From an uncultured Bacteriovoracaceae bacterium (GTDB taxonomy: Bacteria; Bdellovibrionota; Bacteriovoracia; Bacteriovoracales; Bacteriovoracaceae), in assembly GCA_950054155.1 (NCBI GenBank), contig CATLOT010000016.1, forward strand, positions 1 through 64,000: a stretch of 64,000 nucleotides of DNA. Reading direction: 5' to 3'. The notes under the pieces were generated by a model. The model saw only the letters and a list, made by a program, of their open reading frames with translations, did no database searches and had not been told where the DNA came from. A program made the position numbers and the translations under genes. Shown here in pieces: positions 55,700-58,299 of the stretch. The first letter of the stretch is position 1. Every line of letters begins with the position of its first letter.

Positions 55700-56179
55700 T
55701 TAGTGAGTTTGAACTCCAGTTAAGCCTTTTTTATTATCACCACTATTATCTGTAAACTGAAGTGAGATTACATTTGAGTTTGATGACTTAAGACCGAGTC
55801 CGTGAGTATGGCTTCTTTTTTGGTATATTATATGTTGCTCACTACTTTCTTGCTCTTCTTTACAATTAATACAAAGAGTAGCTGTAGGTCGCGCCATTAA
55901 ACGAGGTAATGAAATATCAGCATCACACTCTTCACAGCATCCAAAGGTTCCATTCTCTATTTTCTCAAGAGCGACAGAAACCTTCTTGAGAAAGAATCCT
56001 TGTCTTCCCTGAAGCTTAAGCTCAAGGTGCTGATCACGGTCTCCCAACGCTTGGTCAACAAGATCTCCCCCTTCCCTAATACGAAGAGCTTCACTTAAGA
56101 CTTCACGATCTTCAAGACCAGAATCAGTAAGAATGTTTTGGAATAGTTCTTTAAAGTGATTGAGTGTGGCCTGCTTCAT
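55700..56179 (-). CDS. DksA-family RNA polymerase-binding protein
   Basis: 159 residues. The DksA features are present: an N-terminal coiled coil, the tip motif DLVDQA (D-x2-D-x-A) and a zinc finger CEEC-x17-CINC in the right order and spacing. The family acts in the RNA polymerase secondary channel with ppGpp to control stress, ribosomal and amino-acid genes. A C-terminal tail of about 40 residues (HIIYQKRSHTHGLGLKSSNS) extends beyond the finger and is unlike E. coli DksA. Upstream lies a sigma-54-type promoter and a structured leader. Confidence 0.85.
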   Translation of the reverse strand: MKQATLNHFKELFQNILTDSGLEDREVLSEALRIREGGDLVDQALGDRDQHLELKLQGRQGFFLKKVSVALEKIENGTFGCCEECDADISLPRLMARPTATLCINCKEEQESSEQHIIYQKRSHTHGLGLKSSNSNVISLQFTDNSGDNKKGLTGVQTH

Positions 56180-56230
56180 AACATTATCTCCTATGCTTTG
56201 ATTGATCAGTGGTTCTCTTCTCCAAAAAGA

Positions 56231-56269
56231 CTAAGCATCCTGCTTAGGGGACCGTCCTGGTCCGCTTAG
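56231..56269 (-). ncRNA. Leader with two AGGA-loop hairpins (possible CsrA sites / short RNA)
   Basis: On the minus strand: CTAAGC, then GGACC-AGGAC-GGTCC, two C, then CTAAGC-AGGAT-GCTTAG and TCTTTTT. Each hairpin shows AGGA in a five-base loop, like CsrA/RsmA sites (A-N-GGA-N loops). The second hairpin followed by U-run may end transcription. The first CTAAGC can pair with the same GCTTAG as an alternative fold. It starts at the predicted 5' end of the sigma-54 transcript, about 50-90 bases before the dksA-like start. Confidence 0.5.
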
Positions 56270-56283
56270 ATACCCCTATACAA

Positions 56284-56300
56284 AGCAACACTTGTGCCAA
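56284..56300 (-). promoter_or_regulatory. Sigma-54 promoter of the dksA-like gene
   Basis: On the minus strand: TTGGCAC-AAGTG-TTGCT. The GG and GC dinucleotides are separated by exactly 10 bases, and the match to TGGCAC-N5-TTGC is complete. Predicted start of transcription is near 56273-56276, a run of G. Only sites with this spacing work with sigma-54, and an activator protein would be needed. Confidence 0.75.
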
Positions 56301-56410
56301 AAATAAAACCTAATGATTTCAAGCACTTCAATAAATTTTAGGTGAAGACATTTTGACATTTGAGACAAATTGCAACCGGCGCAGTGACCCCAATGACAGA
56401 AAAAGAAACT

Positions 56411-57324: not shown

Positions 57325-58299
57325 TCAGTGGTACTCATTATTAGTCATCAAATATTGAGTAACGTAATCATTCACGGCCTCTTCTAAAGAGGTAAATTGA
57401 AACTCGGGAAAGACCTTCTTAAACTTACTCATCTCAGCTTGGGTGTAGTATTGATATTGATTGCGAATACTCTCAGGCATATCAATAAATTCTATATTCT
57501 CATTTTTCCCCATTGCTTTAAAGGTCGCGCGCATGAGATCGAGAAAACTTCTACACTGACCAGTGCCCATATTGTAGATCCCTGAGGAACCTGGCACCTT
57601 TTGGTCCATCAGCATAATCATGCCTCTCACGACGTCTTTGACGTAAACAAAGTCGCGAAGCTGCTCCCCATCTTTAAAGTCATCACGATGGGATTTAAAG
57701 AGTTTGACCTTGCCCGTGTCGTTGATTTGTCCATAGGCCTTATGAACGAGACTTCTCATATCACCTTTATGGTACTCATTAGGTCCAAAGACATTAAAGA
57801 ACTTAATTCCATACCAATAGTCTGGCTTACTTTCACGACGAAGAATCCACTGATCGACAACTTGCTTTGAGTAGCCGTAACCATTAAGGGGGCGATAGTG
57901 ATCAATTTTGTCATGGTCGTCACTATAACCTAACTCACCATCACCGTAAGTCGCGGCAGAGGAGGCATAGGCAATCGGGATATTGCGTGAAGTTGCGATA
58001 TTGTAGAGGTTCTGACTGTACTCAACATTATTGACCCACAGGTAATCCATATTTCTTTCAGTCGTCGCAGAACAAGCACCCATATGATAGATACTGTCAA
58101 TTTGATCCCAAAGATCATCTTCCAGCTCAAAGAGTTCATCGGCATGGATATAGGTAATAAACTTTAAAGAGCGCAGGTTCTTCCATTTATCATCACTCTC
58201 GAGTCGATCCACAATAAGGATGTCTTCACGACCTAAATTATTAAGTTCTTTAACAAGAACGCTACCGATAAAGCCCGCGCCACCAGTTACTAAAATCAT
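57325..58299 (-). CDS. hldD: ADP-L-glycero-D-manno-heptose-6-epimerase
   Basis: 324 residues, the usual length. Hallmarks: Rossmann loop VTGGAGFIGSVLV, YHMGACSATTERN, the catalytic Tyr/Lys in NGYGYSKQ, FFNVFGPNEYHKGDM and HRDDFKDGEQLRDFVYVKDV. Makes the activated heptose for the LPS inner core, so this organism has heptose-containing LPS. Its start overlaps the preceding gene's stop by four bases. Confidence 0.96.
   Translation of the reverse strand: MILVTGGAGFIGSVLVKELNNLGREDILIVDRLESDDKWKNLRSLKFITYIHADELFELEDDLWDQIDSIYHMGACSATTERNMDYLWVNNVEYSQNLYNIATSRNIPIAYASSAATYGDGELGYSDDHDKIDHYRPLNGYGYSKQVVDQWILRRESKPDYWYGIKFFNVFGPNEYHKGDMRSLVHKAYGQINDTGKVKLFKSHRDDFKDGEQLRDFVYVKDVVRGMIMLMDQKVPGSSGIYNMGTGQCRSFLDLMRATFKAMGKNENIEFIDMPESIRNQYQYYTQAEMSKFKKVFPEFQFTSLEEAVNDYVTQYLMTNNEYH

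Follow-up and report, generated by a model that had tools for sequence, protein, structure and literature searches.

Sigma-54-type promoter and CsrA-type hairpin leader of a dksA-like gene in the Bacteriovoracaceae

How is a dksA-like gene controlled when a sigma-54 promoter sequence and hairpins with CsrA-type loops stand one after the other in front of it? The locus lies in a window of 64,000 nt (the whole stretch of DNA analysed) from an uncultured member of the Bacteriovoracaceae, a predatory, marine family with many genera available for comparison. The genome of the window comprises 3.52 Mb in 61 contigs. On the minus strand, a gap of 231 nt separates a gene for a 289-aa protein (57280-56411) from a DksA/TraR-family gene (56179-55700). 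The 289-aa protein has no match in Pfam or NCBIfam, and is preceded at 57325-58299 on the same strand by an ADP-glyceromanno-heptose 6-epimerase (TIGR02197, above cut-off). The features of the locus, read along the minus strand, are:

56362 to 56376, unstranded: candidate site for an activator of the enhancer-binding type, GTTGCAATTTGTCTC, a palindrome of the form GGNCA-AWT-TGNCC, in-sample here
56345 to 56359, unstranded: second candidate activator site ATGTCAAAATGTCTT, same palindromic motif, 8.6 bits
56285 to 56299, minus strand: sigma-54 (RpoN) promoter sequence TGGCACAAGTGTTGC, TGGCAC-AAGTG-TTGC, by consensus match, with transcription start predicted near 56274
56180 to 56274, minus strand: 5' leader, predicted length about 95 nt, placed by means of the upstream sigma-54 element and the ATG
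56249 to 56263, minus strand: hairpin 1, GGACC-AGGAC-GGTCC, with a CsrA-type loop, from the sequence and the genus alignment
56231 to 56247, minus strand: hairpin 2, CTAAGC-AGGAT-GCTTAG, with a CsrA-type loop, from the sequence and the genus alignment
56224 to 56230, minus strand: T-run TCTTTTT after hairpin 2, weakly terminator-like by terminator scoring, present in the window genome only
56188 to 56192, minus strand: Shine-Dalgarno AGGAG, a possible additional CsrA contact, from the sequence
55700 to 56179, minus strand: DksA/TraR-family gene, 159 aa, with a C4 zinc finger and a DLVDQA tip motif, by PF01258
55578 to 55597, unstranded: terminator GGGCTCC-TTCG-GGAGCCC with T-runs, 3' of the dksA-like gene, from the sequence and terminator scoring

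The dksA-like gene is probably monocistronic, since a likely terminator stands at 55597-55578. The preliminary description called it a DksA gene. The family assignment holds (PF01258, 6e-12, 45.8 bits against a gathering score of 24.9), but the protein stays below the cut-off for the DksA equivalog TIGR02420, with 84.6 bits against 115.5. Its tip, DLVDQA (D39, D42, A44), is DxxDxA-like. On this domain evidence, the window protein is DksA-like, a member of the DksA/TraR zinc-finger family. The public near relatives of the protein, found with a six-row protein alignment as query, are MAGs labelled Bacteriovoracaceae, Halobacteriovoraceae and Halobacteriovorax; a DNA-level search with a 131-nt region gave one good relative. 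The orthologous loci compared below were gathered through the dksA-like protein, within the same family. DksA paralogues whose N-terminal part is longer lack the promoter and the multiple hairpins, and several of them lie downstream of an MglA-like GTPase gene. In front of the start of a second DksA paralogue (L123, on contig C8 of the window genome; also L124) there is one AGGAA hairpin, TGCTCAGGAAGAGCG, and no sigma-54 site.

The promoter letters TGGCAC-N5-TTGC had been read correctly, and such sites are in excess in this genome, where TGGCAYN5TTGC has 27 matches and a reversed-pattern control has 4. The gene rpoN is found in the genome of the window and in 74 of the 79 genomes searched. With one mismatch allowed, a sigma-54-like site lies 61-185 nt upstream of the start codon in 32 of 34 dksA-like orthologues, the start codons being script-chosen and a few possibly misplaced; in the other two, no site was found under this rule. 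Many of the genomic matches lie 10-60 nt before ORFs, a large share of them signal-peptide-like, and have no GGA hairpins. Among the 26 other exact matches in the window genome, a comparable leader is found only before the gene for a 78-aa small protein on contig C23, and the remaining exact matches look like chance matches inside genes or unrelated sites.

Upstream of the sigma-54 site, the dksA loci carry the palindrome GGNCA-AWT-TGNCC, usually in two or three copies, for which positions around -76 and -59 relative to the site are frequent. The motif was learned on these loci by an odd-width motif search, and their scores are therefore in-sample. Out of sample, scores above 10 bits occur upstream of most other sigma-54 RNAs of the class described below (L126, L136, L137, L134, L102, L104 and others); the ordinary sigma-54 sites of the window genome, used as a control, have 5 such matches in 4000 nt, and some of these controls are possibly true targets. 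The palindrome stands in tandem at 56345-56390 of the window and upstream of other loci, as a candidate site for an enhancer-binding protein. Judged from the sequence, its role as an activator site is suggestive.

Downstream of the predicted start, the leaders are rich in hairpins with GGA in the loop. Counting GGA in a loop of 4-7 nt closed by at least four Watson-Crick pairs, 32 orthologous leaders (3429 nt) hold 68 such hairpins, or 1.98 per 100 nt, against 8.2 +/- 2.8 in dinucleotide shuffles of the leaders (maximum 17, 300 shuffles) and 13 in 7705 nt, or 0.17 per 100 nt, of control upstream regions. The controls were 67 other upstream regions from the same loci and from other sigma-54 loci of the window genome. 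A looser hairpin rule gave 69 against 21.5, and the stricter rule with genomic controls was used instead. GGA is the commonest trinucleotide in the leader hairpin loops (40, against 1 for its reverse complement), and A precedes it in 55 of the 68 hairpins. Two leaders contain ACAAGGAUGU, the exact core (ACARGGAUGU) of the published CsrA SELEX consensus RUACARGGAUGU, where 0.015 would be expected. At least one GGA hairpin is present in 31 of 32 leaders, so that a sigma-54 site with hairpins before the dksA-like ORF is conserved in 31 of 32 loci, and the remaining leader has no simple GGA hairpin. In 12 of the 32 leaders, the Shine-Dalgarno GGA is predicted to sit in the loop of a small hairpin; the Shine-Dalgarno hairpin of the window is weak. 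The orthologue L121, which belongs to a different family of the same phylum, also has a sigma-54 site and a hairpin, CCCAGGATGGG, which was recognised by eye and missed by the script.

In the window, the AGGAC and AGGAT stem-loops of the preliminary description are confirmed, with hairpin 1 beginning 11 nt downstream of the predicted start (about 56274). An alignment of five species of the genus, including that of the window, has 94% of pair cells formed, against at most 54% in slid-partner controls, and 4 of 11 pairs are altered on both sides. The AGGA loop of hairpin 1 is invariant in all five same-genus orthologues, and its stem shows an A-U to G-C compensatory change. The stem of hairpin 2 is kept and covaries, with three pairs changed on both sides, and GGA is missing from its loop in two of the five. 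A competition of two CTAAGC copies for one GCTTAG had also been proposed and is rejected here: the upstream copy is real but occurs in the window genome only, with no counterpart in the same-genus orthologues, and the alternative pairing is less stable than the standard fold (-11.7 against -14.0 kcal/mol).

Both rpoN and csrA, named in the preliminary description as genes to look for, are present in the genome, the latter in the order flgL-csrA-fliW. The encoded CsrA retains L4, R6 and R44, which serve RNA binding, and the FliW-contact residue N55, the mark of a CsrA that FliW binds (PMC13407953). RpoN and CsrA domains occur in the window genome and in most relatives, and FliW in 64 of 79 genomes. 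The csrA leader (L064:1133-1440, minus strand; contig C1 of the window genome near 63707) carries AATCAGGAAGGTTCAGGAATCC, and autoregulation is possible. A search of open-access full text found primary papers neither on Bdellovibrio CsrA nor on a small RNA of Halobacteriovorax.

Promoter, loops and conservation support a leader that controls the dksA-like gene, which is the best-fitting of the options first put forward. We consider it probable that the leader is transcribed from sigma-54, bound by CsrA and repressive for its own mRNA, possibly with CsrA titration in addition. A candidate enhancer-binding protein at the upstream palindromes would activate the RpoN holoenzyme, and the dksA-like gene would be transcribed from about 56274. 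The leader of about 95 nt would fold so that two hairpins expose A-GGA loops, and a CsrA dimer on hairpin 1 would bridge to either the second hairpin or the Shine-Dalgarno, excluding ribosomes. The GGA-to-GGA spacings in the window, 17 nt from hairpin 1 to hairpin 2 and 49 nt from hairpin 2 to the Shine-Dalgarno, fall inside the published CsrA bridging range of 10-63 nt (PMC7652899). Removal of CsrA, for example by the FliW encoded beside it, would let the DksA-like protein be made. The sign could also be the opposite, with CsrA activating or protecting the mRNA. The leader may also compete with weaker targets for CsrA, an effect that would be greatest where relatives have at least four hairpins; titration is a plausible added role for the leader, and its ORF-less relatives may have it as their main role. 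Because a conserved sigma-54 leader of a dksA-like gene has CsrA-signature loops, sigma-54, CsrA and DksA-like control, three global systems, very probably converge on one short RNA.

The dksA-like leader belongs to a wider class of sigma-54 RNAs with several GGA motifs. Two of these have no ORF: L136:1501-1800 (genome G008), with 6 GGA and the genes on either side directed towards it, and L126:1501-1700 (G016), with 3 GGA and a strong terminator downstream. In both, the GGA motifs are mostly in loops and the RNA ends near strong terminators, and their sequences make them candidate standalone CsrA sponges. Sigma-54 multi-GGA RNAs are also found at L130, L140 and L129 in relatives; within the genus of the window, L132, L102 and L104 are such leaders and lead into a gene for a small secreted protein. 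In relatives, the class also includes RNAs in front of ORFs of 43-82 aa. In G013, the dksA-like unit is immediately preceded by a 52-aa ORF with a sigma-54 multi-GGA leader (L029:880-1300). The window genome itself has a second sigma-54 leader (L086/L100, contig C23:37426-37062, minus strand), which has 7 GGA motifs and precedes the 78-aa protein; this protein is signal-peptide-like, its gene is convergent with another DksA-family gene, and the leader is kept in four or five congeners.

These RNAs bear on a different reading of the dksA-like leader, in which it is mainly a CsrA sponge like CsrB or RsmZ and the ORF is a passenger or a second function. The ORF-less RNAs and those before tiny ORFs are of like build, the upstream dyad is common to the dksA loci and several such RNAs, and some relatives have four or five hairpins before their dksA-like gene, all of which fits a sponge. 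However, the window has only two strong sites and most congeners one or two, too few for an effective sponge if the leader is not highly abundant. Downstream, the dksA-like ORF is kept throughout the loci, which were themselves found through that ORF, and Rfam at gathering score gives no match of any kind in the window, neither CsrB nor PrrB_RsmZ, with L102 and L126 having sub-threshold matches only. We regard a predominant sponge function as rather unlikely.

It is improbable that the partner of the GGA hairpins is some other RNA-binding protein, or an RNase, and not CsrA. The hairpins do persist in G061 (estimated 100% complete, 310 contigs), where neither csrA nor fliW was found, but one assembly gap could explain both absences because the two genes are adjacent; the loop and stem context fits the CsrA SELEX consensus, and nearly all other genomes with the hairpins have CsrA. 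Also improbable is an independent, CsrA-titrating RNA of about 50 nt that ends at the T-run, as the preliminary description had suggested: hairpin 2 with TCTTTTT scores as terminator-like (4 such sites in the region against 2.9 +/- 1.7 in shuffles), but its stem has only 3 G-C pairs (-6.0 kcal/mol), the dksA-like gene downstream has no other recognised promoter on the same strand, and the short RNA is unsupported because the T-run, real in the window, is absent in 4 of 4 same-genus orthologues while the promoter-hairpin-ORF order is kept.

The preferred reading, a CsrA-bound, repressing leader of the dksA-like gene, has partial counterparts elsewhere. In E. coli, CsrA represses the dksA mRNA (Edwards et al. 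2011, cited in PMC7652899), and in the window a member of the DksA family would likewise be controlled by CsrA at the post-transcriptional level. Unlike E. coli dksA, for which the statements in PMC7652899 mention neither, the gene here has a sigma-54 promoter sequence and a conserved multi-hairpin leader; its CsrA is of the FliW-bound type, and the phylum is different. The flaA leader of Campylobacter jejuni is translationally repressed by CsrA and is also a CsrA titrator (PMC4894983). It is similar in being short, in having two hairpins with ANGGA loops and in acting with a FliW-type CsrA, but it precedes a flagellin gene and its hairpin 2 covers the ribosome-binding site (PMC4894983), whereas in the window leader the Shine-Dalgarno would be a third, weaker site, and sigma-54 and a DksA-like regulator are involved. 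CsrB/CsrC and RsmX/Y/Z of the Gammaproteobacteria share the repeated A(N)GGA hairpin loops, but are noncoding and have many sites, while the window leader has two or three before a conserved ORF. CrcZ of Pseudomonas is under sigma-54 control, as the window leader would be. In both RNAs the site for a global RNA-binding protein is repeated, but CrcZ is noncoding and binds Hfq via A-rich sites in place of the CsrA-type GGA loops (PMC4063720, PMC8871633). The coupling to sigma-54 and the spread through a FliW-CsrA lineage appear to be new.

Tentatively, the Bacteriovoracaceae may have a sigma-54 regulon in which one enhancer-binding protein activates several multi-hairpin RNAs that jointly titrate the FliW-type CsrA; the dksA-like leader, the leaders of tiny secreted proteins and the ORF-less RNAs are possible members. 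Descriptions of RNA antagonists of CsrA come mainly from the Gammaproteobacteria, and FliW is regarded as the antagonist elsewhere (PMC4894983, PMC13407953). If the regulon exists, it would be an RNA-based CsrA antagonist system in a lineage where just the protein antagonist FliW is expected, and conserved sigma-54-driven CsrA-type RNAs in this predatory lineage would show that both controls can coexist. At the locus, a sigma factor that depends on activators would be linked with CsrA and with a DksA-like regulator of RNA polymerase, possibly at a switch between life phases.
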